Shown: in pieces, positions 2,910-62,725 of the stretch
How the letters are laid out: each line of letters starts with the position of its first letter
Position numbering within the stretch: position 1 is the stretch's first letter
NCBI GenBank assembly: GCA_013298695.1
Contig: JAAFIS010000002.1
Location: forward strand, 402,935 to 466,934
DNA: 64,000 nt
Direction: 5' to 3'
From: Betaproteobacteria bacterium
GTDB lineage: Bacteria > Pseudomonadota > Gammaproteobacteria > Burkholderiales > Casimicrobiaceae
Program-made: the position numbers and the translations under genes
The notes under the pieces: model-generated
Databases searched by the model: none
Seen by the model: only the letters and a program-made list of their open reading frames with translations
Told to the model about the DNA's origin: nothing

Positions 2910-2920
2910 TTCTTAAGCGT

Positions 2921-6177: not shown

Positions 6178-6278
6178 TTGCGAGCGCAGATCAATAAAAA
6201 TGAGAACATCGAAAGAGAACCAGCGCCACACCATCGCTTCATAGCTAGCGGAATCGTGATGCAACTGTTTTTCTCATC

Positions 6279-6361
6279 GCTCGATTTGACTGGGGCTAGA
6301 GGACAATTAACGGTTGTATTTAGTCAAGTATTTATTCTTATCGTGGCACGAAGCTATTGGC
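6279..6361. repeat. Possible degenerate copy of the tripartite palindrome repeat (copy J)
   Basis: In the mutM-dbpA gap, GCTCGATTTGACTGGGGC (centre 6287.5) resembles the consensus GCCCAATTTAATTGGGC with one inserted base. Sixty-six bp later GCACGAAGCTATTGGC (centre 6353.5) resembles the right-hand palindrome. The central dyad at 6320 (TATTTAGT) is poor. The spacing fits the family but the sequence is decayed. The rest of the 237-bp gap shows nothing else recognisable. Confidence 0.35.
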
Positions 6362-6414
6362 GTTAACACGCTGGAGCTATTTCACTTCAACTCCCGCCTT
6401 CCTGATCGATTTAC

Positions 6415-7794
6415 ATGCCGTCAACTGACTTCAACTCGCTTCCGCTCTCGCCTTCGACCTTAACCAATTTGTCAAGGCTCGGCTATGTCACCATGACGCC
6501 CATTCAGGCCGCGAGCTTGCCGCTCACGCTCGCGGGCAGCGATCTTATTGCTCAAGCAGCAACGGGCAGTGGAAAGACCGCCGCGTTTGCGCTGCCGTTG
6601 CTTGCAAAAATAGACGCGTCGTTGCGCGACACGCAAGCGCTCGTGCTCTGCCCCACGCGCGAGCTCGCCGATCAAGTCACACAGGAATTGCGTCGCCTTG
6701 CGCGCGCGGAAGACAACGTCAAAATCTTGACGCTCTGCGGCGGCATTCCGATGCGCCCGCAGCGTGCGAGCCTGGAATTTGGCGCGCACATCGCGGTCGG
6801 CACGCCCGGCCGCATCATGGATTTGCTGGACGTCGGTGCGCTTGATCTGCGCGGCCTAAAAACGCTCGTGCTCGATGAAGCTGATCGCATGCTTGACATG
6901 GGGTTTTATGATGACATCGCGAAGGTGATTCGGCAATGCCCGCGTGATCGACAAACGCTCTTGTTTTCCGCAACTTATCCGCCCGGCGTTGAAGGGCTTG
7001 CCTCGCAATTTCAGCGCAATCCGAAAACCGTAAAAGTGGAAGCGCAACACGACGCTACGAAAATTCGGCAATATTTTTATGAGGTGGAACGTGACCAGCG
7101 TTTGACCGCTGTGTCGCAACTGCTTCGGCATTTTCGCCCGACCTCCACACTCGCGTTTTGCAACACCAAAGCGAAATGCAAAGATGTGTTGGAGCGCTTG
7201 CAGGCCGATGGTTTCTCTGCGCTCGCGCTTCACGGCGAACTCGATCAAAAAGATCGCGATCAAGTACTCATTCAATTCGCAAACAAGAGCTGCTCGGTGC
7301 TCGTCGCCACCGACGTTGCCGCGCGCGGCCTTGATATTCAAGGGCTTGATGCGGTGATCAATATCGATGTGACGCCCGAACCTGATCTCCATATTCATCG
7401 CGTCGGCCGCACCGGACGCGGTGATCAATCTGGTCTTGCGCTCAATCTAGTCGGCATGAATGAAATGCACTGGATCAACAAGATCGAAGACATTCAAGGT
7501 CGCGAATGCGAATGGCATCCGCTGGATGAACTCACATCAACCAGCGACGAACCGCTCGTGCCGCCGATGACCACGATCCAAATCCTGGGCGGCAGAAAAG
7601 AAAAAATCCGCGCGGGTGACATCCTAGGCGCACTCACCGGCGAAGGCGGATTAACCAAAGATCAAGTCGGAAAAATTAATGTCAATGACTTTTCGATTTA
7701 CGTCGCGGTAGCGCGCGGCGTCGCGAAGAAAGCGCTCGCGGCGATTAATGATGGGAAGGTGAAGGGCAAGAGTGTTAAGGCGCGGATGGTTTAA
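6415..7794 (+). CDS. dbpA: ATP-dependent RNA helicase DbpA
   Basis: DEAD-box helicase that acts in 50S subunit assembly; in characterised DbpA the C-terminal domain recognises hairpin 92 of 23S rRNA. The 459-aa protein shows the Q motif (GYVTMTPIQAASLP), Walker A ATGSGKT, motif Ia PTRELADQV, VLDEADRMLDMGF, the SAT motif LLFSATYPP, ARGLDIQGLDAVIN and HRVGRTGRG. The last 75 residues (TIQILGGRKEKIRAGDILGA onward) match the DbpA RNA-binding domain, which separates it from RhlE- and RhlB-type helicases. It appears monocistronic. Confidence 0.93.
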   Translation: MPSTDFNSLPLSPSTLTNLSRLGYVTMTPIQAASLPLTLAGSDLIAQAATGSGKTAAFALPLLAKIDASLRDTQALVLCPTRELADQVTQELRRLARAEDNVKILTLCGGIPMRPQRASLEFGAHIAVGTPGRIMDLLDVGALDLRGLKTLVLDEADRMLDMGFYDDIAKVIRQCPRDRQTLLFSATYPPGVEGLASQFQRNPKTVKVEAQHDATKIRQYFYEVERDQRLTAVSQLLRHFRPTSTLAFCNTKAKCKDVLERLQADGFSALALHGELDQKDRDQVLIQFANKSCSVLVATDVAARGLDIQGLDAVINIDVTPEPDLHIHRVGRTGRGDQSGLALNLVGMNEMHWINKIEDIQGRECEWHPLDELTSTSDEPLVPPMTTIQILGGRKEKIRAGDILGALTGEGGLTKDQVGKINVNDFSIYVAVARGVAKKALAAINDGKVKGKSVKARMV

Positions 7795-9347: not shown

Positions 9348-11330
9348 CTATTTTGATAGGTTCGAGGCCAACGCCTCCCATTTCGTCATCGCCTCCAAAA
9401 TCAACTCGTCGATCTCGCCCGTGCGTTTTGAAATTTCAGCAGCGCGTTTCGGGTCGGTGCGAAAAATTTCGCCGTCTGCGAGTTGTGAATTGATTTCGGT
9501 TTGCTCTTTTTCAAGCGCTTCGATTTTTTTGGGGAGTTCGTCGAGTTCGCGTTGTTCTTTGAAGGAGAGTTTTTGCTTTTGAGGAGCACTTGCAGCGGCT
9601 TTTGTGCTTGAGCTTGTATTGCCGTTGCGGTTGGATACATCGACTTTGCGCGGCATCACCGCGGACGAAACACCCGTCGACGTATTGCTTCTCGCGCCGT
9701 CAGCAACCGCTGCTGCAGATAGCGTTGCCATTACTTTTGCTTGCGCTTGCCAATCGGTGATGCCGCCCTCGTATTCGCGCCAAAGCCCGTCACCTTCGGC
9801 GACGATGCAACTCGTTACTACGTTATCGAGGAAGCGGCGATCGTGGGAGACGATGAATACTGTGCCTTCGTAATTTGCGAGTTTGTCTTCGAGCAGTTCG
9901 AGCGTATCGATGTCGAGATCGTTGGTTGGCTCGTCGAGCACGAGCACGTTGGCCTCTTTTGCAAAATGACGCGCGAGCAGCAGCCGATTTCTCTCCCCAC
10001 CGCTGAGCATTTTCACTTGTGCTTTCGCGCGCTCGGGAGGAAACAGGAAGTTTTGCAAATACGTCATCACATGCGTGCGCAACGTGCCGGTTTCGATCCA
10101 GTCACTTCCGGGCGAAATGAATTCCGCCAACGTAGCTTCCTCATCAAGCGCGTCGCGCATCTGATCGAAGTAGGCGATTTGCAGATTCACTCCGGTGCGA
10201 AGTTTGCCGCTATCGGGGCTGAGTTGCCCCAGAATGAGTTTCAACAACGTTGTCTTGCCGATGCCATTCGGACCAACGAGACCGACTTTATCGCCGCGCA
10301 GCACCGTTGCCGTGAAATCTTTGACGATGACTTTTTCCTGTCCCGTTGTTGCATCGACAAATGACTTACACACGTCGGTGAGCTCTGCAATCACCTTGCC
10401 CGATTTCTCACCACTCGAAAGATCAAGTTTGACGCGCCCAAGCGTGTCGCGACGCGCAGCGCGTTGCGTACGAAGTCGCTCCAGCCGCAACACGCGCCCT
10501 TCGTTTCGTGTGCGGCGCGCTTCGACGCCTTTGCGAATCCACACTTCTTCTTGCGCAAGAAATTTGTCGAACTTAGCGTTCACCGTTGATTCAAATTCAA
10601 GCTGCGCGGCTTTGGTCGCTTCGTACGCCGCGTAATTTCCGGGGAACGTGGTGAGTTGCCCACGATCGAGTTCGACGATGCGGGTCACCACATTGTCGAG
10701 AAATGCGCGATCATGGCTGATGATGACGGCACTGCCTTTGAAACTGCGCAGCAATTCTTCGAGCCACGCGATAGAGGCAAGATCGAGATGGTTGGTGGGT
10801 TCATCAAGCATCAGCACATCGGGCGCGGCCACCAACGCTTGCGCTAACGCGACGCGCTTTTTCAATCCGCCGGAGAGTGTTGCAACTTTCGTCGCGGGCG
10901 TCAGTGAGAGCTGCGACAGCGTGGCTTCAACTCTTGACTCCCAAGTCCAACCGTCAAGCAACTCAATTTCATGCTGAATATCGGAGAGCTCGTGTTGATC
11001 GGCGTCCGCCTCGGCAGAGAGCGATTCATAGCGCTCTCTGAGGTCGCGCGCAGCGGACACACCCTCGGCAACGGCATCGAACACACTGACGTCAACTGCA
11101 AACTGCGGCTCCTGCGGAACGTAGGCCGTACGCACGCCGCTTTGTCGCGCGATGTCGCCGTCGTCAAGCGTTTGTGTACCTGCGAGCACTTTCAGAAGCG
11201 AACTTTTGCCCGCGCCATTACGGCCGATCAATCCGATCCGCTCCCGAGTTTCAATCGCAAAATCAACGTGATCTAGAAGCGGCGCGAGGCCGAACGCGAG
11301 CTGAGCTCGGTGCAAAGTGAGAAGTGCCAT
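9348..11330 (-). CDS. uup: ABC-F family ATPase, Uup type
   Basis: A soluble ABC-F protein with two ATPase domains and no membrane part. Family members act on ribosomes, and Uup has also been tied to DNA structure and transposon excision. Domain 1 has Walker A GRNGAGKSS (about residues 38-46), signature LSGGLKKR and Walker B VLMLDEPTNHLD. Domain 2 has GPNGIGKTT, LSGGERNR and VLVLDEPTNDLD. The interdomain linker is the charged region around residues 235-300. The C-terminal domain (about 590-660, beginning SFKEQRELDELPKKIEALE) is a coiled coil typical of Uup. Length 660 aa is normal. A short copy of part of this gene recurs at 42680-42724. Confidence 0.92.
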   Translation of the reverse strand: MALLTLHRAQLAFGLAPLLDHVDFAIETRERIGLIGRNGAGKSSLLKVLAGTQTLDDGDIARQSGVRTAYVPQEPQFAVDVSVFDAVAEGVSAARDLRERYESLSAEADADQHELSDIQHEIELLDGWTWESRVEATLSQLSLTPATKVATLSGGLKKRVALAQALVAAPDVLMLDEPTNHLDLASIAWLEELLRSFKGSAVIISHDRAFLDNVVTRIVELDRGQLTTFPGNYAAYEATKAAQLEFESTVNAKFDKFLAQEEVWIRKGVEARRTRNEGRVLRLERLRTQRAARRDTLGRVKLDLSSGEKSGKVIAELTDVCKSFVDATTGQEKVIVKDFTATVLRGDKVGLVGPNGIGKTTLLKLILGQLSPDSGKLRTGVNLQIAYFDQMRDALDEEATLAEFISPGSDWIETGTLRTHVMTYLQNFLFPPERAKAQVKMLSGGERNRLLLARHFAKEANVLVLDEPTNDLDIDTLELLEDKLANYEGTVFIVSHDRRFLDNVVTSCIVAEGDGLWREYEGGITDWQAQAKVMATLSAAAVADGARSNTSTGVSSAVMPRKVDVSNRNGNTSSSTKAAASAPQKQKLSFKEQRELDELPKKIEALEKEQTEINSQLADGEIFRTDPKRAAEISKRTGEIDELILEAMTKWEALASNLSK

Positions 11331-11376
11331 AGCACCTAAGTTTAGACGATGGAAGGTAGCACTTTATTCACTGTGT

Positions 11377-11460
11377 GTCCTATTTAATTCGGCATAAGCG
11401 CTATTTTGACTTTATATTGATAATTACCTTTAAACGAACCATAAACCAATATAAATGCGG
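11377..11460. repeat. Tripartite palindrome repeat, copy I
   Basis: Left palindrome GTCCTATTTAATTCGGC (centre 11385) matches the consensus GCCCAATTTAATTGGGC at 14 of 17 positions. The right one, CCAATATAAATGCGG, is centred at 11453. The midpoint carries TATTGATA (centre 11418.5), 7 of 8 matches to TATCGATA. It lies in the 277-bp gap between the divergent uup and fadD genes, where it may overlap the fadD promoter. Nothing else is evident in this gap. Confidence 0.7.
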
Positions 11461-11607
11461 CTGTACGGTAGTTGTTGCTAGACCTCTACGAGCGCCAAAA
11501 TGTGGGTTACACCTGCGTTTTAGAGGTTCTGCCGCTGTTAACATCAGTCGCAGAAAAACGCGGGCTTGACTCGCCATCAGATATCTAACATCGCAGAAGG
11601 AGGATCC

Positions 11608-13302
11608 ATGGAAAAGATTTGGCTTAAGCACTATCCGAAAGGCGTGCCAGCGACCATCGACAACACGCAGTACACGTCGATCGTGCAGCTGTTGGAGGAA
11701 AGTTTTCAGAAATACTCAACCCGAGCAGCGTTTCACTGCATGGGAAAAACGATCAGCTACGGCGACGTCGATGCACTATCGCGAGCGTTCGGCGCTTACT
11801 TACAGAGCTTGGGATTGCAGCAAGGTGATCGCGTTGCAATCATGATGCCTAATGTGTTGCAGTATCCGGTGGCCGTTGCCGCGGTCTTGCGTGCGGGATT
11901 TGTTGCGGTGAACGTCAACCCGCTCTACACACCGCGCGAACTTGAGCATCAACTCAAAGATTCCGGTAGCAAAGCCATCATCATTCTCGAAAATTTCGCG
12001 GCGACTTTGCAGCAGGTTCTCGACAAAACACCGGTAAAACACATCGTGCTGGCAACGATGGGCGACATGCTTGGTTTCTTGAAGGGCACGATCGTTAACT
12101 ATGTCGTGCGCAAGAAAAAACGACTCGTACCCGCATTTTCGCTGCCCACGGCAGTGAAGTGGAACGACGCGGTGGCCAAGGGTAAGGGCGTTGCGCTCTC
12201 GCCTTCGAAAGCGAAATTTGATGACCCCGCAGTGTTGCAATACACAGGCGGCACGACCGGCGTGTCGAAGGGTGCGACACTTTTGCATCGCAACATCATC
12301 TCAAACGTGCTGCAATCGGAAGCGTGGATGCAGCCCGCATTAAACAATCCGAAGAAGCCGCCTCCAGCCGAGCAAATGAATACCGTTTGCGCGTTGCCGC
12401 TGTATCACATCTTCGCGTTCACCATTTGCTATCTATTGGTTCTGCGCACTGGTGGGCAGTCCATTCTGATTCCGAATCCGCGCGACATTCCGGGCACCAT
12501 CAAGGCACTTAAAGGATTTAAGCTGCATATGTTCCCTGCGGTCAACACGCTCTACAACGCATTGGTCAACGATCCAACGTTTGGCGAACTCGACATGAGC
12601 GATCTTCGCGTAGCTAACGGCGGCGGCATGGCTGTGCAAAAGCCGGTCGCTGATAAGTGGCTCGCCGCGACTGGCTGCCCAATCATCGAAGGGTACGGCT
12701 TGTCGGAGACTTCGCCGTCTGCGACCTGTAATCCCGCTGATACCGACTCCTACAGCGGAACGATTGGTTTGCCTCTTCCATCCACCGAAATCTCGATCCG
12801 CGACGATGACAATAACGAAGTGAAACTGGGTGAGCCCGGCGAAATCTGTATTCGCGGTCCGCAGGTGATGGCGGGCTATTGGCAGCGCGCTGACGAAACC
12901 GCGAAGGTGTTCGCACCCGATGGTTTCTTTAAGAGCGGCGACGTCGGCGTTATGGATGAACGCGGCTATGTGAAGATTGTTGATCGCAAGAAAGACATGG
13001 TGCTTGTTTCTGGCTTCAACGTATATCCAAACGAAGTTGAAGAAGTCGTCGCATCCTGTCCCGGCGTGATGGAATGTGCGGTAATCGGTGTGCCGGATGA
13101 AAAATCGGGCGAAGCGGTTAAGGTCTTTGTTGTTAAGAAAGACCCCGCACTCACCGAGCAGCAAGTCCGTGATCATTGCGAGAAGAATCTCGCCGGATAC
13201 AAAAAGCCGAAATACATCGTGTTCCGCGCCGACCTGCCGAAAACACCTGTTGGAAAAATACTACGTCGCGAATTGCGCGACATGGACAAGAAAGCCGCGT
13301 AA
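11608..13302 (+). CDS. fadD: Long-chain fatty acid-CoA ligase
   Basis: Activates fatty acids to acyl-CoA through an acyl-adenylate, for beta-oxidation or lipid recycling. The 564-aa protein has the AMP-binding signature YTGGTTGVSKG at about residues 211-221, the motif EGYGLSETSP, the hinge motif SGDVGVMDERGYVKIVDRKKDM, and the catalytic Lys near the end in KTPVGKILRRELR. The start is the ATG at 11608, directly behind a strong GGAGG site. The frame is open 14 codons further upstream without support. An UUCG-loop terminator follows, so it appears monocistronic. Substrate chain length cannot be read from the sequence. Confidence 0.92.
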   Translation: MEKIWLKHYPKGVPATIDNTQYTSIVQLLEESFQKYSTRAAFHCMGKTISYGDVDALSRAFGAYLQSLGLQQGDRVAIMMPNVLQYPVAVAAVLRAGFVAVNVNPLYTPRELEHQLKDSGSKAIIILENFAATLQQVLDKTPVKHIVLATMGDMLGFLKGTIVNYVVRKKKRLVPAFSLPTAVKWNDAVAKGKGVALSPSKAKFDDPAVLQYTGGTTGVSKGATLLHRNIISNVLQSEAWMQPALNNPKKPPPAEQMNTVCALPLYHIFAFTICYLLVLRTGGQSILIPNPRDIPGTIKALKGFKLHMFPAVNTLYNALVNDPTFGELDMSDLRVANGGGMAVQKPVADKWLAATGCPIIEGYGLSETSPSATCNPADTDSYSGTIGLPLPSTEISIRDDDNNEVKLGEPGEICIRGPQVMAGYWQRADETAKVFAPDGFFKSGDVGVMDERGYVKIVDRKKDMVLVSGFNVYPNEVEEVVASCPGVMECAVIGVPDEKSGEAVKVFVVKKDPALTEQQVRDHCEKNLAGYKKPKYIVFRADLPKTPVGKILRRELRDMDKKAA

Positions 13303-22200: not shown

Positions 22201-22307
22201 GGGTTCTCCTTGTGTGTTTTGATTCGAATGACGTTCAAAATGCATTGTAGAAACGCATCGATCGGTGCAAGAGAGGGCTTTCCTCCACCGATCAGCTCAT
22301 TATTTGA

Positions 22308-22394
22308 TCGCCCAATTTAATTGGGCGACAGTCGATTAACAAACTACTATCGATAACTTATCAAAGTACGTTTATCTCCCAATTAAATTGGGCG
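22308..22394. repeat. Tripartite palindrome repeat, copy A (best preserved)
   Basis: The left arm is a 21-bp perfect palindrome containing CGCCCAATTTAATTGGGCG, centred on T22318. The right one, CCCAATTAAATTGGG, is centred on A22385, 67 bp away. TATCGATA (22348-22355) is centred at 22351.5, exactly the midpoint. The element lies in the 393-bp gap between the Bug gene and aceE, upstream of aceE. Apart from AT-rich sequence suited to a promoter, the rest of this gap shows nothing else. Confidence 0.9.
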
Positions 22395-22593
22395 ATAGCC
22401 AGCAAAGTTAAATATTTCTAGAAATCTGCATCGTGAAAACCCTTTCCACGATGTGAAATTATCGTTATGATTTTGCCTTGAAGAAATTCGTGAAGAAGCG
22501 CTGCGTCGCGACATCATTCGTTGTGCATCGCGTCAATTGCAAAATCAAAACACTTGCGCTGATCGGCGCAAACGAAGTGAGGACTCCGGCGTT

Positions 22594-26739: not shown

Positions 26740-26745
26740 GTTTTG

Positions 26746-26858
26746 CTGTCATCCCCGCGAAGGCGGGGACCCAGTTCGTAATCTACGCGAAGCGCACTTC
26801 AATCGTCGACAAATCACAAACCTCCCGGTCTGGGTTCCCGCCTTCGCGGGAATGACAG
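26746..26858. repeat. Dispersed GTCATTCCCGCGAAGGCGGG inverted repeat
   Basis: A 113-bp element occupies nearly all of the aceF-lpdA gap. It starts CTGTCATCCCCGCGAAGGCG and ends CGCCTTCGCGGGAATGACAG as its inverted partner, with CCCAG/CTGGG inside. It is the same general family as the element at 25275. A lone half-element (CCCGCTTTTACGGGAATGACAG) is at about 39935-39956. Confidence 0.88.
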
Positions 26859-26886
26859 CACCGTAGAACTCCAAAGAGATTTCTTC

Positions 26887-29142: not shown

Positions 29143-29405
29143 GGTAGGGTGGGCACCCCGTGCCCACCGTGGCGTTTCGTGATTCGCTCAAGTTGTGGGC
29201 AGGCGGCTGCCCACCCTACGAATAAGCGCATCCGAGGGCGACACTCATAGCCCGTGTCTGGCTCGTAGGGTGCGATCCCATCGCACCTTGTGCAAATACG
29301 TGCGAAGCGGATCTCTTCAATCAACGCTGGCTCGTATCGACTTGGGTGCGATAGGATCGCACCATACCCCGCCACGAAAACCCGGATGCGAGCATCCGGG
29401 CTACG
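29143..29405. repeat. Cluster of dispersed hairpin repeats
   Basis: The 323-bp gap between the orphan gene and the antitoxin is made of known-style dispersed repeats: GTAGGGTGGGCA (29143) inverted to TGCCCACCCTAC (29208), GGGTGCGATCCCATCGCACC (29268) related to GGTGCGATAGGATCGCACC (29345), and CCCGGATGCGAGCATCCGGG (29382). A GGGTGGGCACGGGGT copy also lies at about 39043, before the HEPN gene stop. No gene is seen here. Confidence 0.8.
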
Positions 29406-31526: not shown

Positions 31527-32213
31527 ATGCTGTTGCTTTTCAATAAACCCTACGGCCTTCTCTCGCAATTCACGAGCGATGGTGGGCGCTGGAAAACGCT
31601 TGCTGAGTTCATTGATATTCCGAACGTCTATGCGGCGGGTCGGTTGGATGCGGATAGTGAGGGGCTGCTGTTACTCACGGATAACGGGGTGCTGCAGGCG
31701 ATGATTGCGGGGGCGGAGCGAGTTCATGGATCGGTCCTTCGACAAGCTCATGGTTCGACAGGCTCACCACGAGCGGAGATGAACTCACCGCGAACGGGAA
31801 ATAGGAAGTCGGAGCGCACGGTGACGAAAACCTATTGGGCACAAGTCGAAGGCATCGCCACCGACACCCACGCCGCGCAACTTACGCGCGGTGTGGCGCT
31901 CAACGATGGCGCGGCGCGGGCGGTTTCCTCTCGCGTGCTGGTTGACGCGAAAGAACCGTGGCCGCGCGATCCGCCGATTCGCGCTCGAAAATCAGTGCCG
32001 GATTCGTGGATTGAATTGACGCTTGATGAAGGTCGCAATCGTCAGGTGCGGCGGATGACGGCAGCTGTGGGGCTGCCAACGCTGCGATTGATTCGCGTAG
32101 CGATTGGGCCTTGGCGTGTGGATGATGTAACGCAGGGCGGCTATCTAACGATCAGCGACGACGAAGCGTTTGCGGACTTGCGTTCAACTGATTTACTGCT
32201 ATCAAATCGCTAA
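31527..32213 (+). CDS. rluE: 23S rRNA pseudouridine synthase, RluE type
   Basis: A 228-aa member of the RsuA/RluE/RluF family without an S4 domain, as in RluE, which modifies U2457 of 23S rRNA in E. coli. The catalytic Asp is in [17 protein letters not shown] (about residues 40-56). TKTYWAQVEG and the C-terminal RNRQVRRMTAAVGLPTLRLIR motif are present. A repeat-derived stretch (31732-31797, product RQAHGSTGSPRAE) lengthens the loop after the catalytic motif without breaking the frame. The start is the ATG at 31527 because homology begins MLLLFNKPYG. A decayed paralogue lies 1.4 kb upstream. Confidence 0.9.
   Translation: MLLLFNKPYGLLSQFTSDGGRWKTLAEFIDIPNVYAAGRLDADSEGLLLLTDNGVLQAMIAGAERVHGSVLRQAHGSTGSPRAEMNSPRTGNRKSERTVTKTYWAQVEGIATDTHAAQLTRGVALNDGAARAVSSRVLVDAKEPWPRDPPIRARKSVPDSWIELTLDEGRNRQVRRMTAAVGLPTLRLIRVAIGPWRVDDVTQGGYLTISDDEAFADLRSTDLLLSNR
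31732..31797. repeat. Dispersed GTTCGACAGGCTCA repeat inside rluE
   Basis: CGGTCCTTCGACAAGCTCAT followed by GGTTCGACAGGCTCACCACG, and a trailing CTCACCGCGAACGG, belong to the family also found in aceF and lpdA. It is in frame and extends a surface loop of RluE by about 20 residues. Confidence 0.8.
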
Positions 32214-32229
32214 GTAGCTAACAAGTATT

Positions 32230-32314
32230 AAGGCCATATTTATTGGGCTTTTACATTGTTTTTCATAAAAATCAATGTAATTGTTAGTAGTAAGCTAAGC
32301 CCAATTAACTTGGC
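32230..32314. repeat. Tripartite palindrome repeat, copy B
   Basis: Left AAGGCCATATTTATTGGGCTT-like palindrome is centred at 32240 (one mismatched pair in the arms). Right GCCCAATTAACTTGGC is centred at 32306.5. AATCAATG lies at the midpoint (about 32273.5) as a weak TATCGATA match. The element lies between the rluE and copZ 3' ends, about 16 bp after the rluE stop. Either palindrome could help transcript ending. Confidence 0.75.
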
Positions 32315-32358
32315 GATTACGTGCGAAAGCCATACTTCAGAAACACACTGCCGCCGTT

Positions 32359-37799: not shown

Positions 37800-38220
37800 G
37801 TTTTTGGTAAGGCAGGGCAATACCCTGCTCCGCAACCGACCGCCCGCTGTGCACACTCCGAAAGCACATGAAGGAACAGCGTGGCGCGAGGCTCGGCTCG
37901 AACGAATTCGCTTTTCAAGTGGCCCTCCCCTCCTCGTGGAAAGACAGCGAATAAATTCGGTAAGTTGCGGGCGCTAGAAGTGCGGCTAGTGCGCGAGGTG
38001 AAAGTCCTCACACCGTTTTTGCAGGGAACGCGCCAGCGTTTCCGAAGTGCATGAAGGCTTAAAGCACGCTCTGAGAATGGACGCATTCAACGAGAGATCC
38101 GAAGAACGGCCTTAGCGGACGCGAGCGTGAAAACGCTCGTGGTGGTGCAAAGCACAGAACGCAAAAACTTCTTGGCACTAAGCCGTAACGCCCAATTGAT
38201 ATTGGCATTACGGCTTTTTT
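37800..38220 (+). ncRNA. Candidate structured non-coding RNA (orphan)
   Basis: About 420 nt without a convincing reading frame but with many hairpins in one strand sense. They are GCAGGG-CAATA-CCCTGC (37812), TGTGC/GCACA (37849), GCGCTAG/CTAGTGCGC (37970), GAGG-TGAAAGT-CCTC (37995), GGGAACGC-GCCA-GCGTTTCC (38023), GAATG-GACG-CATTC inside CTCT/AGAG (38069-38096) and CGAGCGT-GAAA-ACGCTCG (38123), then a terminator. GAAA-type loops and A-rich joints are typical of folded RNA. CTGCTCCGCAACCGACCG and GGTGAAAGTCC recall motifs in IscB-linked HEARO/omega RNAs and in group II introns respectively, from memory only. No IscB, TnpB or reverse transcriptase gene lies nearby. Exact ends are uncertain. Confidence 0.55.
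38181..38220 (+). terminator. Terminator ending the RNA candidate, enclosing a repeat palindrome
   Basis: Outer stem AGCCGTAA (38181-38188) / TTACGGCT (38208-38215), inner GCCAAT-like pairing, then TTTTTT to 38220. The loop region is the left palindrome of repeat copy C. Confidence 0.85.
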
Positions 38221-38276
38221 ATTGTTTAATCAAGATACCGTATAAATTTACTTTTAGCCAACTTGATATGGGCTAA
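38190..38276. repeat. Tripartite palindrome repeat, copy C
   Basis: Left GCCCAATTGATATTGGC is centred at 38198. Right TTAGCC-N11-GGCTAA is centred at 38265, 67 bp away. The midpoint (38231.5) carries AATCAAGA, a weak TATCGATA match. The left half sits within the terminator of the RNA candidate. Confidence 0.75.
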
Positions 38277-38364
38277 CAACGAATAATTTACTACTTCACA
38301 ATCTAGTCTAGCCCGTGCGGTTTTGATCTCAATAGATCAACGCGACGGAGCACGCGACGGGTCT

Positions 38365-40045: not shown

Positions 40046-41029
40046 ATGGATGCAATGGATGTTTTATTGCCGCAGCCGTCTTCTCGCGCACCCACGCCCG
40101 CGCCTGAGGGCGCGCGCTTAATCACGCCGGAGCTGCTCAAGCATCCTGGAATTTTTCGGATGGGCGATGTGTCGCAGGTGGTCGACGGCGTGGTGGGCAG
40201 TGGGTTTTCTGCGTTGGATGCGGCGCTTCAAGGCGGTTGGCCGGTGGCGCGGTTAACCGAGCTTTTGTGCGATCACGCGGGGGTGGGTGAGCTTTCGTTG
40301 TTATTGCCGACGCTGCCTAAATTTGCGGCGACTGCGCTCACGCAGTCTGCGCGATCATCGCAATCTCAGCGATCAGTACGCTCAGCCAAACAAGCGTCCG
40401 CCGCTCATCAGCTTGAGCGCAATCATCGTGCGATTTGGATTTCACCGATTACGATGCCCATTGGATTGCCATGCGTGGCTTACGCGCCAGCGCTCGCGCG
40501 CGAGGGCGTTGATTTGCGCCAGATTGCGTTTGTAACGACAACTTCGTCGCAGCAAACGCTGTGGGCGATGGAGCAAGCGCTGCTCTCAGGGGCGACGCGA
40601 TGTGTGTTCGGATGGATCGGCGATCATCCGCATGATTTTTCGTTGCGGCGCATTTCGCTTGCGGCGCGTAAGAGTGAAAGCTTGTGTTTTTTGATGCGGC
40701 CTGCTGCGGCGGCGAAGCGCGCGTCGCCTGCGGAATTGCGGATCGCGATCACGCCCGCTGCAACCACCACTTCGCACGGCGCGATTAATGTGATGCTGCT
40801 CAAGCGTCGTGGTTTGTTGCGCGAAACTACGTTGCAGTTGCAAACGCGCGAGCTGCCCTGTTTAGGGCCCAACCGCGCGCCGATTGCATTGCCTGCGAAG
40901 CCGCTATCGCCAACGATACGCGTTGATCGTGGGGCGGGAAGCCCAATGACGCTGCCGCTAAACAGTGAAGTCACGAGCGCTACCAGCGCCGCAAACGTGC
41001 GCCAGCGCTCGTTCATTATTGATCGTTAA
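40046..41029 (+). CDS. imuA: Translesion synthesis accessory protein ImuA
   Basis: A RecA/SulA-like protein (327 aa) that with ImuB and DnaE2 forms the mutasome used for error-prone repair. The core SGFSALDAALQGGWPVARLT then ELLCDHAGVGELSLLLPTL is a RecA-like nucleotide-binding region, followed by IWISPITMPIGLPCVAYAPA and REGVDLRQIAFVTTTSSQQT. The C-terminal tail is basic and probably disordered. The start is ATG 40046 (ATG 40055 is an alternative). It is first in imuA-imuB-dnaE2, under a LexA box. Confidence 0.92.
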   Translation: MDAMDVLLPQPSSRAPTPAPEGARLITPELLKHPGIFRMGDVSQVVDGVVGSGFSALDAALQGGWPVARLTELLCDHAGVGELSLLLPTLPKFAATALTQSARSSQSQRSVRSAKQASAAHQLERNHRAIWISPITMPIGLPCVAYAPALAREGVDLRQIAFVTTTSSQQTLWAMEQALLSGATRCVFGWIGDHPHDFSLRRISLAARKSESLCFLMRPAAAAKRASPAELRIAITPAATTTSHGAINVMLLKRRGLLRETTLQLQTRELPCLGPNRAPIALPAKPLSPTIRVDRGAGSPMTLPLNSEVTSATSAANVRQRSFIIDR

Positions 41030-41054
41030 TTTCATACTGCCTTTAACGATTACT

Positions 41055-41139
41055 GCTCAATATGCTTTGGCTTACCGTATATTTTCCTTATTTATCAATA
41101 GAAGTCGTTAATAGGCTTTACGCCCAATTAAATTGGGCG
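41055..41139. repeat. Tripartite palindrome repeat, copy D (runs into imuB)
   Basis: Right palindrome CGCCCAATTAAATTGGGCG is perfect and centred at 41130. Left GCTCAATATGCTTTGGC is centred at 41063, exactly 67 bp away, and contains the imuB start codon. TATCAATA (41093-41100) lies at the midpoint (41096.5), 7 of 8 matches. About 78 bp of the element are translated as imuB codons 1-26. Confidence 0.8.
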
Positions 41140-42621
41140 GTAGACGCTATAGCCAATAAAACTATTCGTTCTTCGGATGCATCGGCGATTCATGCTGCGC
41201 AACACGACGTTTCGTTCTTAAACGCGACGCCGCTCGTAGTCGCGGACGGCCCCGAATCGCGACCCACGGTGTATGCGTTAAACCGTTCGGCGCGCGACGC
41301 GGGCATTGCTATCGGGATGACCATTGCGAGCGCGAAAGTGCTGCAGCATGATTTGATCGTTGCGCCGCGCGATACAACGAAGGAATTGCGCGCGCTCAAA
41401 AGGATTGCTAACTCGCTGCTGCAATTCACGCCGTCTGTTGCCATTGAAAAAGAGATTGATCGCGCGAGCATCGCCATCGAAATTTCAGGATCGCTCACCT
41501 TGTTTGGCGGACTCGATGCGATCTTGCTTCGTATTCAACATGGCATTCGGCGCATGAATTACCGCGCGCGCTTCGGTGTGGCGACCAATCCGCTCGCGGC
41601 CACACTTTTCGCGCGCTCCTCGAAATCGAGTGAACAGGCGTTGCGCTGTTTGGCTCAGGAAGCGATTGAAGCGAAGCTTGCACCGCTCTCAGTGCAGCAT
41701 TTTGCTTGGTCCAACGAAACCTTTCGCGCGCTGCACACACTCGGTCTTTCAACAATTGGCGATGTGTTGCGGCAGCCGTATGCGGGATTGCAAAAGCGAT
41801 TCGGTGATGTCTTCGTTGCCGATCTGGATCGCGCGCTCGGGCGCGTAAGCGATTTGCGCGAGTTTTATGTGCCACCCGAGACGTTCGAGAGCCGTCTCGA
41901 TTTTTTATTCGAAATTAAAGACACGGATCGATTGCTGCCGCCGATTGAAGAATTACTCATTGAGCTTGAAGGCTTCCTGCGCGGACGTGGCGCGGGCGTG
42001 ACAGAGATTCGCATTGAGCTTAAACAAGGACGTTCGCGGTCACAGTCATTTGATTTTCAATCGCGTGCGCCAGTGCGCAGCGCAGCGCATTGGCTGCGCA
42101 TGGTGAGTGATCGGATTGAAACGTATGAACTGCAAGAACCTGTGATTGAAATCGCGCTTTTTGCACATCGCATCGTCGTGCTGCAAGAAGAAAACGAGAG
42201 TTTGCTGCCGCAGGAAAAAGGCACGAGCAGCGATTGGCATACGTTACTTGATCGATTGTCATCACGATTGGGCGAGCAAAGCGTGTATCGCATCGCAACG
42301 ATAGATGATCACCGCCCCGAGCTTGCATGGCGCGCCGCGCATGATGATTCGATGAAAGACAAACGCAGTCTTTCGCAGAAAGCGCGCCCAACGTGGTTGC
42401 TGCGTGAACCGAAATCACTGGTTGAAATGGAAGGCGCGCCGCAGTATCACGGAGCGCTCACCTTGCTCGCCGGACCAGAACGAATCGACACCGGTTGGTG
42501 GGATAACAAACCCGTTGCGCGCGATTACTTCGTGGCGATGAATGCGCAACGCGAAGTGTGTTGGGTATTTCGCGATTATCGACAGGGAAGGCGATGGTAT
42601 TTGCATGGATTTTTTTCTTGA
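41062..42621 (+). CDS. imuB: ImuB, catalytically inactive Y-family polymerase homologue
   Basis: The 519-aa hub of the ImuA-ImuB-DnaE2 mutasome, which binds the sliding clamp. MLWLTVYFPYLSIEVV is the usual ImuB N-terminus. LVVADGPESRPTVYALNRSA and DAGIAIGMTIASAKVL follow the Y-family palm, and KEIDRASIAIEISGSLTLFG replaces the DE catalytic pair of real Y polymerases. The protein ends RWYLHGFFS. Residues about 20-27 (YAQLNWAV) are encoded by a repeat palindrome inserted in frame. It begins 33 bp after imuA and is likely co-transcribed. Confidence 0.92.
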   Translation: MLWLTVYFPYLSIEVVNRLYAQLNWAVDAIANKTIRSSDASAIHAAQHDVSFLNATPLVVADGPESRPTVYALNRSARDAGIAIGMTIASAKVLQHDLIVAPRDTTKELRALKRIANSLLQFTPSVAIEKEIDRASIAIEISGSLTLFGGLDAILLRIQHGIRRMNYRARFGVATNPLAATLFARSSKSSEQALRCLAQEAIEAKLAPLSVQHFAWSNETFRALHTLGLSTIGDVLRQPYAGLQKRFGDVFVADLDRALGRVSDLREFYVPPETFESRLDFLFEIKDTDRLLPPIEELLIELEGFLRGRGAGVTEIRIELKQGRSRSQSFDFQSRAPVRSAAHWLRMVSDRIETYELQEPVIEIALFAHRIVVLQEENESLLPQEKGTSSDWHTLLDRLSSRLGEQSVYRIATIDDHRPELAWRAAHDDSMKDKRSLSQKARPTWLLREPKSLVEMEGAPQYHGALTLLAGPERIDTGWWDNKPVARDYFVAMNAQREVCWVFRDYRQGRRWYLHGFFS

Positions 42622-42622
42622 A

Positions 42623-42831: not shown

Positions 42832-42840
42832 TAATCAACC

Positions 42841-48132: not shown

Positions 48133-48177
48133 CGCCCATAAGCATAAACCAAACGCATAACAGCATTCGCCGTTTAA

Positions 48178-48260
48178 GCCCAATTTAATTGGGCGAGTAA
48201 GTCAACTACACAATATAGCAACGCTATTAAATGTATTGGTAATTGCCCGATAAAACAGGC
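48178..48260. repeat. Tripartite palindrome repeat, copy E (inside an operon)
   Basis: Left GCCCAATTTAATTGGGC is perfect and centred at 48186. Right GCCCGATAAAACAGGC-like arm is centred at 48252.5. ATAGC-AAC-GCTAT, centred at 48221, occupies the midpoint. It lies in the 138-bp gap between the sensor-kinase stop and the response-regulator start, all on the minus strand. Confidence 0.78.
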
Positions 48261-48270
48261 GTTGTTACAA

Positions 48271-49617
48271 CTAAGCTGTTATGCGATTACTAGTTCGCCA
48301 GAAAAGAGAGATACCGAATCGATTGCGGGCTCCGCGAACAATATGAAGTGTTCCTTGAGTCTGGCTAGCAATCTGAGCAACGATAGCTAAACCCAGCCCG
48401 CAATGGCCTTGTGAGCCGCGATCATCAGTAAGCCGTGAAAAGGGCTGCACCGCTCGCTCGAACTCCGCGTCCGACATGCCTTCGCCCTCATCCCACACGG
48501 TTAACGTCGTTTCCTCGCCGAGTATGCTCTGCCTCAAGCTCAATTCGACTTCCACCGGTACACCGCCGTATTCCAGCGCGTTGTCGATCAAATTGGTGAG
48601 TGCGCGTTGGATCGCGAGGTCGGGAATCGGTGTCGCCACCGCGCTTGATTTGAACACCACGGGCGCGCCCTGAGTTACGTACGTGGAAACGATCCTATCC
48701 ACAACTTCGTTCAGCGGCCATGGCTCACCGTACCCAACGTGACTTTCGCTCTGCGCATACCCGACGAACTGCGTGACGATCCGTTCCAGCGCGGTCAAAT
48801 CACGATCAATTTCGCGCAAACTTTTCTCGTCACACGCCATCTCCACCCGGAAACGGAGTCGCGTCAATGGAGTGCGCAAATCGTGACTGATGCCGACGAG
48901 CATTTGCTGTTTGGTGCGTGCGGCTTGTGCATTGCTGTCGACGACGCGATTAAACGACTCTACAAAATTTCGAATCTCGCGATCTGCGCGGTCCGGTACT
49001 TCGAGCGGATCCAACGCACCATTTCGCCCAGATAACTGCGCGGAGAGCTTGCGGATTGGACGGTTCACCAGCGCCAAACCAACGCTCGCAGCAATGATGA
49101 CGGCCAAGGCAACCATAACTAACCAGCCAATGATTCCGGTAATCGCGATCCAGGTGGGGGAACTCGGCTCGTGCACGATTTGCCAACGTTCACTACCGAC
49201 ATTGAACACATAAAAAATTCCCTCACCCATTGGCGCACCGGCAATGATCCGTATGCTCACATCAACGTCGGGGTCCACGCGCTGTCGCATGTCTTCGAGA
49301 AGTTGCGCCGACACCACGCGGGACGGCGCGATAGTTTCTGTACTTTCATTAGTTTTCAAACGCGACACTCGATGTTGAGCCCGCGTTAAAGAACCCGCGA
49401 GCGAGTCGCGCTCCGCAGGCGCAGTGAGCGCGAGCAGAGCGCGTTCGCTTCGAACCATGGCCGTTAACACCGATGTGAAATCTGTCGCCAACACACGCAC
49501 AAAATTGAGTGTGACGACGAGATGCAGCACCAACGAAAGAACGCTGACCCCAATTACCAATGCAACCAAGCGCGCCACAAGTGAATCGCGCCCGAATTGT
49601 TTCCAAAGATTGAACAA
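48271..49617 (-). CDS. Membrane sensor histidine kinase
   Basis: A 448-aa kinase. Transmembrane helix 1 (about 16-42), a periplasmic domain of about 110 residues, helix 2 (about 157-184), a HAMP linker, dimerisation helix with His245 in GISHDLRTPLTRLRF, and an ATPase domain with NLIDNALEYGG, DEGEGMSD and GHCGLGLAIVAQI. The arrangement is EnvZ-like and it pairs with the OmpR-family regulator after it. The start is ATG 49617. The 41-bp gap to the upstream lipoprotein gene supports one operon with the RND system. Confidence 0.9.
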   Translation of the reverse strand: MFNLWKQFGRDSLVARLVALVIGVSVLSLVLHLVVTLNFVRVLATDFTSVLTAMVRSERALLALTAPAERDSLAGSLTRAQHRVSRLKTNESTETIAPSRVVSAQLLEDMRQRVDPDVDVSIRIIAGAPMGEGIFYVFNVGSERWQIVHEPSSPTWIAITGIIGWLVMVALAVIIAASVGLALVNRPIRKLSAQLSGRNGALDPLEVPDRADREIRNFVESFNRVVDSNAQAARTKQQMLVGISHDLRTPLTRLRFRVEMACDEKSLREIDRDLTALERIVTQFVGYAQSESHVGYGEPWPLNEVVDRIVSTYVTQGAPVVFKSSAVATPIPDLAIQRALTNLIDNALEYGGVPVEVELSLRQSILGEETTLTVWDEGEGMSDAEFERAVQPFSRLTDDRGSQGHCGLGLAIVAQIASQTQGTLHIVRGARNRFGISLFWRTSNRITA

Positions 49618-54381: not shown

Positions 54382-55844
54382 GGTGTTTTCGTGTACGCTG
54401 ATTTAGGACCTATAAGCCCAGTGTTGTTGGCCGTCGCTTTGATGAGCTGCACCCAGGCTTGCGCTTGATCGCGCGCTGAATCGATTTCTGCGAGCGCGGC
54501 AGCATTCGCAGACCGGCGCGCATCCTCCAACTCGAACAAACTCATTCGACCGGCTCGGTACGCGGCTTCACTCCCGAACAACAGCCGTCGTGCTGCAGCC
54601 TTTGCCTGCACGTTTAGTGCTGCGCGCTTTTCAGCAGCATCAGCGTTGATGAGTGCGTTATCAACGTCTTGCGCGGCGCTGCGCAGTGCGCTCTCAAGCT
54701 GCGCGGTGGCTTGCGCGTACCGCGCGCGTGCGCCCGCAACGCTCGCCGCCCCCGCGCCACCGTCGAACAAATTTCCAAGCAACGAGCCGCTAATCGACCA
54801 CGAATCCGAATCAATCGTTCTCGAAAGACTGCGCACCCACGACGTGCCGAGAAGCGCGCTGACATTCAGGCTTGGCAACGTCGCAGCGCGAGCCGCTCCC
54901 ACGTCTTCGAATGCGGCGTCAGCATTGCGAAGCGCGGTGCGCACCTGCGGCAATTCGGCAAGAACATCGGCAGCAAAATCTGCTGGCGTCGGCCCGATTG
55001 CGAGAGAGCCGACATCACGACCGACCGCTAGCGCAGCGGCCGTTGCGCTGTCAATCTGAGTGCTTGACCAGCCGCTCAGCGCGACCAGAGACGCGACCTG
55101 AGTCGCGCACTGCGACGTAGCGCTTGACAGTTGAGTCGCGCTATCGAGCATCGCGGATTCAGCGCGCGCGGTTTCAATCGGCGCTATTTGCCCAGCGCGT
55201 TCTCGCAGCGCGCTGAGTCGCAACGATTCCTCTCGCGAGCGCAGATCTTCACGTCGAGCGATTTCACGCTGCCTACAAGCACGCACATTGATTGCACCGT
55301 CGACCACTTGCGATTGCAGGAGTAGTCGAGCGTTCTGCGCGTCGGCATCGCGTGCGAGCAATCGCTGCTGCGCGGATGCGGCGTTGTGGTGTAGTCGACC
55401 AAACAAATCAATTTCCCATCCGAGAGTGAGATTTACCGCAGCGCTCGTTTGGGTTACTCCAGTTGCCGATTGCGAATTGCCGCGTTTCGGTTCGGAACTG
55501 ACGTTTAGCTTCACACCACGTGCAGCCTGTGCAGACTGTGCGCCTGAGCGCGCTTCATCTACGCGGGCTAAAGCGAGCGCAATAGTCGGCGAGCGCTGCT
55601 CAGCGTCAACAACCAACGAATCGATCATCGCATCGCCGAGCGCATTCCACCATTGCACTTCTCGCGCGACACTATCGCCGCCAGCAGCGTCGGCGTTGGT
55701 TTTCCAGGATTTCGTAACGCTGGGCACTAGGGTCTTCGCTGGTGGCTGCAAACTGCAGGCGGAAAGTATGAAAGTCATAGTCACCGCAACGACGAAATAC
55801 GCGCCAACTGAGCCGAGCCATGTAAGCGTTGGCGGTACCGCCAT
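54378..55844 (-). CDS. RND outer membrane factor (TolC/OprM type)
   Basis: A 488-aa outer-membrane channel lipoprotein. The leader VVAVTMTFILSACS ends in a lipobox. The mature chain has two OEP repeats, each with long helices, for example WWNALGDAMIDSLVVDAEQR then SPTIALALARVDEARSGAQS, and later the LPQVRTALRNADAAFEDVGA / ARAATLPSLNVSALLGTSWV pair that marks the second repeat. I prefer the ATG at 55844 over 55898 because the signal peptide begins there and the upstream codons lie in a repeat. It opens the efflux gene set. Confidence 0.88.
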   Translation of the reverse strand: MAVPPTLTWLGSVGAYFVVAVTMTFILSACSLQPPAKTLVPSVTKSWKTNADAAGGDSVAREVQWWNALGDAMIDSLVVDAEQRSPTIALALARVDEARSGAQSAQAARGVKLNVSSEPKRGNSQSATGVTQTSAAVNLTLGWEIDLFGRLHHNAASAQQRLLARDADAQNARLLLQSQVVDGAINVRACRQREIARREDLRSREESLRLSALRERAGQIAPIETARAESAMLDSATQLSSATSQCATQVASLVALSGWSSTQIDSATAAALAVGRDVGSLAIGPTPADFAADVLAELPQVRTALRNADAAFEDVGAARAATLPSLNVSALLGTSWVRSLSRTIDSDSWSISGSLLGNLFDGGAGAASVAGARARYAQATAQLESALRSAAQDVDNALINADAAEKRAALNVQAKAAARRLLFGSEAAYRAGRMSLFELEDARRSANAAALAEIDSARDQAQAWVQLIKATANNTGLIGPKSAYTKTP

Positions 55845-55847
55845 AAC

Positions 55848-55930
55848 GCAAACTTTATCTGGGCAGAAAGGGCTTTCTGCGCTTATCTCTAGATACATAC
55901 AAAATTCATTGATAGCCCAATTTAAATGGG
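55848..55930. repeat. Tripartite palindrome repeat, copy F
   Basis: Right CCCAATTTAAATGGG is centred at 55923. Left GCAAACTTTATCTGGGC is centred at 55856, 67 bp away. TATCT-CT-AGATA (55884-55895) is centred at 55889.5, exactly the midpoint. It lies immediately upstream of the outer-membrane factor start codon, so it is in the leader of the efflux genes. Confidence 0.78.
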
Positions 55931-56034
55931 GTTACAGGCTTGGAGCTGGAACACGCGTTAGCGGTGGCTAATAGGTAGGCCAAAGCTCGAAGCTACGCGG
56001 CTCAAGCGCTAACGCATCGATCCTTTTTGTGCAC

Positions 56035-59515: not shown

Positions 59516-59971
59516 ATGCAAATCGACGATCTTGATCGACGCATTCTTGCGCAGCTGCAGTCTGACGCGTCGCTCACCAATCAGGCGCTCAGCGAACGAG
59601 TTTTTGCGTCCGCCGCCACGACGTTGCGCAGGGTTAGCGCGTTGAGAAACTCCGGCATGATCGATCGCTATGTGGCCCTGTTGTCGCCCGCAGCGTTTGC
59701 CGCGATACACGCGATTTCCGAGATCACACTGGATGAACAACACGCGGAAGCGTTCGCCGTGTTTGAGGCGATAGCGCTCGCAGAGCGCTGCATTTCGCAG
59801 TGCTACCGCACCTCACCTTCAGTCGATTTCACACTCGTACTTACGCTTGCATCAATGGATGACTACAACGCCCTCGTCTCGCGAACTTTCAACATGAAGA
59901 ACAACGTACGCAACGTGCGAACGCGTTTTTCAACCGCACGTGTAAAGTTTGAAACCAGATTACCGCTTTAG
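59516..59971 (+). CDS. Lrp/AsnC-family transcription regulator
   Basis: A 151-aa protein. MQIDDLDRRILAQLQSDASLTNQALSER opens the family's helix-turn-helix (about 1-55, with ASAATTLRRVSALRNSGMID as recognition part). The ligand-binding RAM domain (about 65-150) follows, with DYNALVSRTFNMKNNVRNVR. Such regulators usually sense amino acids or related metabolites and form octamers. The start at ATG 59516 is set by the helix-turn-helix; the earlier open codons are unsupported. Its stop is followed closely by repeat copy G, part of which reads as a terminator. No clear target apart from itself and the divergent glmS. Confidence 0.9.
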   Translation: MQIDDLDRRILAQLQSDASLTNQALSERVFASAATTLRRVSALRNSGMIDRYVALLSPAAFAAIHAISEITLDEQHAEAFAVFEAIALAERCISQCYRTSPSVDFTLVLTLASMDDYNALVSRTFNMKNNVRNVRTRFSTARVKFETRLPL

Positions 59972-60064
59972 CCTTGATACGGCACGTAAATTGGGCTAAA
60001 GCGATTTTTAATAGCTATCTCGAGAATTTATCTAAACGCGGCACTCGCCCAACTAAAATGGGCG
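59965..60064. repeat. Tripartite palindrome repeat, copy G (left half acts as terminator)
   Basis: Right CGCCCAACTAAAATGGGCG is centred at 60055. TCTCGAGA (60018-60025) is centred at 60021.5, 33.5 bp before it. The left arm, GCTTTAGCC...GGCTAAAGC (59965-60002), is enlarged by about 10 bp, overlaps the Lrp stop codon and is followed by GATTTTT, so it probably ends that transcript. Confidence 0.72.
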
Positions 60065-60162
60065 TATACTAACTATCTTATATACAGTCAACACCTTCGA
60101 CGATTCGCGGCACGATCATCCAGCGCACCCTTCGCCTGGCGGTCGCAAATAGGGCGTTAATC

Positions 60163-62502: not shown

Positions 62503-62610
62503 CAGGAGATACGCAACAGCGGCTAGCCAGTCGGTCGGCTGCCGCTGTTGGGCTCTCACAAGTGAGCGCGGCGAACACCCGCGAAACTCGATAACGGCTT
62601 ATAAGCTATA

Positions 62611-62694
62611 GCCCCAAATGCGTTGGGCGGTACGCTAAGTTTTGTCTTATATCGAACTAGATCAAAATCACTGCCCAGACCGAATAAAGTAGGC
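62611..62694. repeat. Tripartite palindrome repeat, copy H
   Basis: Left GCCCCAAATGCGTTGGGC is centred at 62620. TCGA (62652-62655, in TTATATCGAACTAG) is centred at 62653.5, 33.5 bp on. The right arm GCC...GGC (62673-62694) is degraded and centred near 62684. It lies between the 3' ends of the DUF4397 and panC genes. Confidence 0.62.
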
Positions 62695-62725
62695 CTTTGA
62701 TTGCTACTGCTTTTCAAAAAAAACC

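Follow-up and report, generated by a model that had tools for sequence, protein, structure and literature searches.

DNA gyrase of E. coli acts on a motif that covers 130 bp and is symmetric about the cut. In it, a centre of 36 bp is flanked by two arms of 47 bp, whose GC period is 10.75 bp (PMC6379681). Very strong sites slow the enzyme in vitro (PMC6379681). The gyrases tested in a second study share a GC period of 10-11 bp and an extended region of about 120 nt, and core preferences for G at -4 and A at -2 were consistent across all of its enzymes (PMC12324340). Dispersed palindromes of a different kind are found in the E. coli REPs, which are complementary, present in many identical copies and associated with RAYT genes (PMC2817692). 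Every RAYT gene is described as having REPs at its flanks (PMC2817692), and a subset of BIME-2/REP elements is cut by gyrase (PMC6379681).

The repeat described here was found in a 64,000-bp stretch of DNA (the window, G000:C12:402935-466934) from a 4.08-Mb draft genome (G000). Like the E. coli gyrase motif, it is a symmetric pattern of about 130 bp, here ending at about ±68 bp, with a border between core and arms (a minimum at 17-19 bp) and arm phasing of about 10.75-11 bp. Unlike that long and degenerate motif, it holds about 51 bits, and some positions are about 90% conserved. It resembles the Mu strong gyrase site (SGS) and the pSC101 partition site in being a symmetric wrap with phased AT/GC. 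However, these are single phage or plasmid sites, whereas the repeat occurs on the chromosome in hundreds of evenly spaced copies with a strong base consensus. With BIME-2/REP elements it has in common that it is palindromic and intergenic. No published description of the repeat was found among the literature matches listed, and those for the string AATTGGGCGATA are unrelated by title. Our analysis indicates that the element is very probably a site on the chromosome to which a protein binds, rather than a mobile or RNA element, and that the protein is probably DNA gyrase, with appreciable doubt on this second point.

Abundance and anatomy of the repeat

Copies were detected with a mirrored half-model of 73 columns, trained iteratively on another contig of the same genome (C1). 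In an 800-kb sample of C1, 154 copies score at least 12 bits, compared to one in the reversed sequence used as control. Merging of overlaps and a 15-bit cut left 146. If this density holds, the genome contains about 740 copies, in agreement with an earlier sequence-only reading of the window, which had expected hundreds. The genome scan that it proposed also gave a clear signal. The arm palindrome GCCCAATTWAATTGGGC, with at most two mismatches, was counted 237 times in the genome of 4.08 Mb, whereas a control read backwards has none. Palindromes pair at 67 bp far above chance frequency, with 44 pairs of summed match at least 25/34 in the 800 kb at this distance and a median of one over distances of 18-199 bp. 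Smaller peaks are present at 66 and 68 bp. Among the 154 copies, the spacing between arms is 67 in 117, 66 in 20 and 68 in 17. Most of this variation comes from a 1-bp slack that some copies show where the core joins the arm.

Ten copies are present in the window, with scores of 43 to 84 bits from the C1 half-model and a spacing of 67 in all of them (Table 1). They include all nine copies named by the sequence-only reading, at 44.7-83.5 bits, and the one it had called weak, near 6279, which fits the same model. Its arm spacing of about 67 was correct for the copies it labeled A, C, D and F, and its value of 66.5 for B and E was not. Its list of starts was correct overall, except that the copy placed at 59965 has its left palindrome at 59980. 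Two weaker, doubtful places at 9 bits or above are centered at 2279.5 (9.8 bits) and 54390.5 (13.6 bits).

Table 1. Copies of the repeat in the window and parts of the best-scoring copy (the exemplar)
Feature	Positions	Strand	Dyad; score	Remarks
Exemplar, full 136-bp dyad unit	22284..22419	.	22351.5; 83.5 bits	spacing 67; the previously noted 22308-22394 is its inner part
Exemplar, left outer block CAGCT	22293..22297	.		54.5-58.5 bp from dyad, by column profile
Exemplar, left arm palindrome GCCCAATTTAATTGGGC	22310..22326	.		centre 33.5 bp from dyad
Exemplar, core around dyad	22346..22357	.		TATCGATA at 22348-22355, TCGA centre
Exemplar, right arm palindrome TCCCAATTAAATTGGGC	22377..22393	.		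by letters and column profile
Exemplar, right outer block	22406..22410	.		AGTTA; genome consensus AGCTG
Copy	6253..6388	.	6320.5; 43.2 bits	between mutM/fpg (5350-6177) and dbpA (6415-7794)
Copy	11351..11486	.	11418.5; 57.7 bits	flanked by Uup-like ABC-F gene (9348-11330, minus) and long-chain fatty-acid CoA ligase gene (11566-13302, plus)
Copy	32206..32341	.	32273.5; 62.4 bits	between pseudouridine synthase and P-type ATPase genes
Copy	38164..38299	.	38231.5; 67.5 bits	
Copy	41029..41164	.	41096.5; 73.8 bits	junction of ORF 40046-41029 and ORF 41062-42621 (IMS domain)
Copy	48152..48287	.	48219.5; 68.7 bits	5' edge of response-regulator ORF (47425-48183, minus)
Copy	55822..55957	.	55889.5; 44.7 bits	5' edge of ORF 54378-55898 (minus)
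Copy	59954..60089	.	60021.5; 70.5 bits	convergent: AsnC-type regulator (59420-59971, plus) and ORF 60163-60984 (minus)
Copy	62586..62721	.	62653.5; 59.3 bits	convergent: ORF 61237-62502 (plus) and pantoate ligase gene (62726-63559, minus)

A column profile was calculated from 280 aligned half sites of the C1 copies. It defines a dyad-symmetric unit of 136 bp with mirrored halves, whose signal stops sharply about 68 bp on either side. The core consensus at the dyad is TTTATC/GATAAA (slash at the dyad). Moving outwards, an AT patch at 15-11 bp from the dyad is followed by GATA at about 24-21 bp, the arm palindrome centered at 33.5 bp, with a GGG on its inner side that is 82-91% conserved, AA at 44 bp, a TA-CAGCTTT block at about 62-52 bp, with CAGCT at 54.5-58.5 bp on both sides, and a faint AT patch at 67 bp. 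Information minima are found near 17-19 and 47-50 bp, and the content is 25.6 bits per half. The AT patches in the arms are phased; the period that fits them best, about 10.75-11 bp, forms a broad peak, and the arm phase is 0.80 and 0.74 in two species. The earlier description missed the outer CAGCT blocks and the phased AT patches. An integron-like reading was dropped when the copies were read.

The copies are not alike over their length. Pairwise identity among 88 copies in G000 is 39.8% on average and 56.4% at most, compared to 25.4% for unrelated flanks, and the sharing in their interiors is limited to the phased positions. The view that spacing and symmetry are conserved, rather than a whole sequence, is therefore borne out. 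The dyad symmetry is likewise a property of the consensus. The left half matches the mirrored right half at 41.1% within a copy and at 39.7% between copies (p = 0.07). Next to the left palindrome, bases pair at 0.303 vs 0.279 ± 0.016, and inside it at 0.572 vs 0.550 ± 0.011, about two standard deviations. Because complementarity within a copy is small beyond the consensus, we read the element as a duplex target and not as a foldback. Among the three readings offered from the sequence alone, a structure is thus hardly favored, and a protein target is supported.

Placement along the chromosome and conservation in relatives

Gene context was assigned to the 146 C1 copies by our own simple gene calls. 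Most copies (112) lie between genes or at the edge of one, and the 34 inside genes are weaker, with a median of 29 vs 52 bits. Among gaps of at least 130 bp, a copy is present in 25/39 convergent, 61/192 co-directional and 14/57 divergent ones, an enrichment in convergent gaps compared to the rest (p = 9e-5). In co-directional gaps, the copy lies closer to the gene upstream (median 88.5 bp from its 3' end) than to the one that follows (165 bp from its 5' end; n = 68).

The spacing of the copies is even. Over most of the sampled C1, one site is found per about 4-5 kb. Across all 800 kb, 96 of the 145 gaps between copies measure 2.5-7.5 kb, whereas at most 76 did so in 2,000 uniform simulations and 81 in 2,000 gap-slot simulations. 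Gaps shorter than 2 kb number 15, compared to at least 30 and 24, respectively. The coefficient of variation (CV) of the spacing is 0.48 in 1-560 kb of C1, a value as low as which was not reached in 5,000 simulations, the 560-kb limit having been chosen after an empty stretch was seen. Over the whole 800 kb, this stretch brings the CV to the random value. Copies inside genes tend to be located mid-way in long stretches that contain no intergenic copy (mean relative distance 0.33 vs 0.25 expected, n = 34). In a second species of the genus, G005, about 335 sites occur at one per about 13 kb. Their spacing is also even, with a CV of 0.55 (4 of 5,000 simulations as low) and a smallest gap of 3.6 kb (none of 5,000 as large).

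The stretch nearly devoid of elements covers about 580-700 kb of C1. Several DUF5122 beta-propeller proteins and a PilY1-type protein are encoded in it, as well as two large proteins with weak AAA/NACHT-like matches. Phage or integrated DNA was considered as the cause of the empty stretch and rejected, as no phage or integrase family was found in the 10 proteins scanned of the 35 listed. In the window, an ORF without a Pfam match, an ImuB-like ORF with an IMS domain and an error-prone DNA polymerase stand in a row at 40046-45948. The row recalls the imuA-imuB-dnaE2 cassette, and an element is located at its first junction.

The places of the elements are mostly kept in the relatives compared. 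The closest relatives by the gene at 11566-13302 are uncultured genomes, mostly labeled Betaproteobacteria or Burkholderiales. Among their 12 closest named loci, some of which are on the same contigs as the genomes compared below (e.g. L083 and G002), 11 are testable, one (L093) being cut at the gene. An element of at least 10 bits is found 195-480 bp upstream of the fatty-acid CoA ligase in 10 of the 11, one of them at 12.7 bits; L084 has none. The Uup-like gene is also on the other side of the element in five of the genomes compared. Seven of seven elements with colinear flanks in G002, G005, G009 and G011 match a G000 element in the same interval, and these correspond to four G000 sites, three of them within the window. 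When the window was compared to G002, five of six comparable intervals contained an element. These hold the copies centered at 6320, 11418, 22351 and 32273 and an interval in which the copies at 60021 and 62653 share one G002 element. No element of at least 12 bits was found in the 371-bp G002 interval that matches the copy at 38231. The copies at 41096, 48219 and 55889 fall outside this comparison, as no link in the chain of matches to G002 covers them.

The sequence of the element changes between species, and its geometry does not. In G005, the consensus is CAGCTTTTT.. with the core AAAGTC/GACTTT (AAAGTCGACTTT), and the geometry is the same as in G000. The AT profiles of the two species correlate (r = 0.81), and the spacing is 67 in 23 and 66 in 7 of the 30 copies in 400 kb of G005.

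A sequence-only model (R1), made from 70 copies and carrying the G000 consensus, matches 16 of 17 genomes of the genus (E 0.01). Twelve of these match richly, with at least 72 rows counting both strands and a cap at 81, and G008, G003, G007 and G012 are element-poor by this model, with 3-10 rows. Outside the genus, a single weak match was found, in one of 23 other genomes. With stricter filters (E 0.001), R1 has no matches in 47 genomes of six other genera of the family. Across 300 genomes of the order, it matches five genus genomes and gives three single weak partial matches elsewhere; it has none in the genus genome G016, which is among the 300. A model trained on G005 finds six elements in 98 kb of G012 and none in the reversed sequence, so the low R1 count there partly reflects a different consensus. 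The same model finds none in 40 kb of G008, 16 kb of G016 or 240 kb of four genomes of other genera.

Candidate binding proteins and alternative origins

We propose that each copy would be a 136-bp duplex site for a single DNA-wrapping complex with two-fold symmetry, for which the A2B2 tetramer of DNA gyrase is the most likely candidate. The core, about 18 bp on each side of the dyad, would sit in the DNA gate of gyrase with TCGA at its centre. The arms, about 18-68 bp from the dyad, would wrap round the two GyrA C-terminal domains, with their AT patches recurring every 10.75-11 bp or so. With these sites, gyrase would be distributed at regular intervals over the chromosome, with a preference for gaps between convergent genes, in which transcription accumulates positive supercoils.

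The binder may instead be another two-fold DNA-wrapping protein, such as a genus-specific nucleoid-associated or chromosome-organizing factor (e.g. an Lrp-like oligomer), an alternative that we consider unlikely but not negligible. The anatomy needs only a symmetric wrapping complex, and the conserved GGGC, CAGCT and TCGA suggest direct base reading, which is not described for gyrase in the available text of the sources cited above. The elements were seen in one genus only, with none in the 47 genomes elsewhere, whereas GyrA matches are present in 38 of 40 relatives. However, R1 bears the G000 consensus, so the absence elsewhere may mean another consensus. Against such a protein also stand the length, the core/arm border and the phasing, which coincide with those of the gyrase motif. 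The different G005 consensus with a similar AT profile is what indirect readout predicts, which supports gyrase. Two features of the sites count against gyrase. First, the G000 core departs from the reported preferences, with 12% G at -4 and 26% A at -2; G005 agrees with them in part, with 22% G and 65% A. Second, the GG positions conserved at about 90% are unlike the degenerate E. coli motif, and E. coli gyrase is slowed in vitro by very strong sites (PMC6379681).

To compare the elements with phage and plasmid gyrase sites, only their A/T-versus-G/C profile was used, with no base identities. In Mu, where the annotated cut at 17879/17880 gives a centre of 17881.5, the profile has a local maximum at the cut within ±6 bp. 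Of 36,572 positions, the raw score places the cut centre at rank 121 with the G000 profile and 2,272 with the G005 profile; by the centred score it is at 347 and 1,225, respectively. The score is higher at a position 20 bp away from the cut, and moving the right arm outwards by one base improves its fit. For phage Ab30, a candidate gyrase site has been reported in a 37-bp segment free of transposition (PMC5977238). The best dyad inside this segment ranks 3-5 (centred) or 4-20 (raw) of 36,855. In B3 and D3112, we used the gap after the G-gene homologue, where the Mu gyrase site lies; this gap is stated to have been taken from the annotation before scanning. The best place in it ranks 1 of 38,255 in B3 and 2-7 of 37,455 in D3112, these two sites being expected by position and not proven, and D3112 and Ab30 being relatives. 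The signal in D108 is weak (rank 40-105). The A/T profile peaks at 17861 in Mu and 19670 in B3 both lie shortly after the G gene homologue ends. Position 19670, the best of the scanned B3 genome, is a candidate gyrase site.

AT-matched windows do better than the site, by mean profile, in 4.7% of cases for Mu, 22.8% for D108, 4.3% for Ab30, 3.1% for D3112 and 0.0% for B3. Stricter AT-matched values for single phages are modest (Mu 0.06-0.21, Ab30 0.07, D3112 0.03-0.06, B3 0.007). In a combined fit to Mu, Ab30, D3112 and B3, with D108 left out, the true profile scores 13.0, compared to at most 10.1 for arms shifted by 1-6 bp, 8.3 for inverted arms and at most 12.1 for 400 block permutations, none of which reaches the true score; five of 400 rolled profiles do. 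In pSC101, the best dyad in 4640-5010 with the G000 profile is at 4727.5, which among 9,318 positions comes 3rd by the centred score and 12th by the raw score; the best partition-region dyad with the G005 profile ranks 33-38. Position 4727.5 lies between the HincII (4521) and AvaI (4889) sites, which we take to bound the partition region. The strong pBR322-991 site was scanned through its counterpart in the tet gene of pSC101, on the assumption of a shared tet numbering. It was not recognized, with a rank of 1,414-4,243 of 9,318 at 992.5 and a best rank within 975-1005 of 428 (centred) or 2,794 (raw). The peaks of B3, Ab30 and D3112 in the gap expected for a gyrase site count for gyrase, and also against another wrapping protein. 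The pSC101 dyad and, less well, the local maximum in Mu count for gyrase too. The failure at the pBR322-991 counterpart, the Mu peak 20 bp off, the low ranks of the Mu cut centre with the G005 profile and the weak D108 signal count against gyrase.

The topoisomerase complement of the genus was also analyzed. No ParC, as a second GyrA-type protein, was found in the 17 genus genomes (G000-G016), 13 of which are at least 90% complete; additional rows of the GyrA search in them are pieces with GyrA-type scores. No ParE was found in the same 17 genomes either, the best score being 525 bits. Scores in the ParE range (634-739 bits) are present in 11 of 16 genomes of other families and in one of seven other genomes of the family (G020). 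A cut piece in G025 may be ParE. By these searches, gyrase seems to be the only type IIA enzyme of the genus. Topoisomerase IV was also not found in six of the seven sampled genomes of other genera in the family. Its absence is thus wider than the elements, which makes it a setting for them and not their cause.

GyrA was compared over 29 of 30 loci, with that of G016 left out. The ratio of C-terminal to N-terminal divergence is 0.50 in 28 pairs from eight element-rich genomes, 1.01 in 15 pairs from other genera of the family and 1.09 in 66 pairs in the order. Low ratios are also found in pairs poor in or without elements, about 0.5 for G008-G012 and 0.69 for a pair from another genus (g2). A link between the slow divergence of the GyrA wrapping domain and the elements is suggestive only.

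A mobile origin was among the earlier suggestions, and a repeat of the REP/BIME/REPIN type spread by a RAYT (Y1) transposase would account for hundreds of palindromic, mostly intergenic copies. Y1_Tnp matches are indeed found in 15 of the 17 genus genomes, and the two that lack them, G008 and G016, are element-poor. However, in the six Y1_Tnp genes examined of 44 match rows (one scoring below the family cut-off), the nearest element is 1.9-4.3 kb away, a distance that even spacing alone would give, so the expected co-occurrence with flanking elements was not seen. These genes may not be RAYTs, as a narrow REP pattern is not beside them either, being 3.5-4.7 kb away at the nearest in two stretches and absent in four. 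The low identity of the copies, their even spacing, the location of some inside genes and the mostly conserved places in relatives also argue against such a repeat, and no GT(A/G)G REP head is seen in the column profile. In addition, the window contains a separate, genuine REP pair of different sequence at 26744-26860. It is a dispersed palindromic repeat in the same genus, like the element, but its 31-bp inverted arms, which hold CCCCGCGAAGGCGGGG and are 55 bp apart, are GC-rich and 94% complementary. Its sequence recurs at many places in G002. Several further G002 matches are found for window positions 29260-29370 and 37660-37710, perhaps from shared domains or further repeats. Taken together, spread by a RAYT is very improbable.

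An RNA-level element, such as a bidirectional terminator, an attenuator or a small RNA, would fit the enrichment in convergent gaps and the position nearer the upstream 3' end in co-directional gaps. Little complementarity is present within copies beyond the consensus, though, and copies are found deep inside genes and in divergent gaps, which makes this reading just as hard to sustain. Rfam at gathering score gave nothing in the window except a tRNA. Least credible of all is a decayed, MITE-like non-autonomous transposon, with which the fixed length and the interval lacking an element in G002 would agree, since decay would scramble a spacing that is exact in most copies, conservation is confined to phased positions, G005 combines another consensus with the same geometry, and the places are the same across species in the cases compared.

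Proposed gyrase sites and the layout of the chromosome

The repeat is real and ordered, and it is functional-looking. If DNA gyrase is the binder, the even placement may serve supercoil control. It is plausible, and in our judgment as open to being wrong as right, that the genus encodes the layout of its chromosome supercoiling in sequence. The layout would consist of hundreds of gyrase-docking sites with a species-specific pitch (about 4-5 kb in G000 and 13 kb in G005), located even inside coding sequence where no suitable gap is present, and co-evolving with the wrapping domain of the sole type IIA topoisomerase. If the binder is not gyrase, the elements would point to a chromosome-wide wrapping protein that we cannot name, which would be stranger still.

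Whether sequence sets the placement and pitch of gyrase across a chromosome is hard to ask with the degenerate E. coli motif. Here, a single genome provides several hundred predicted sites resolved to the base. Their consensus is strong and their pitch regular, and they vary naturally from one species to another. These sites would make gyrase placement, domain size and the role of gyrase without topoisomerase IV testable.
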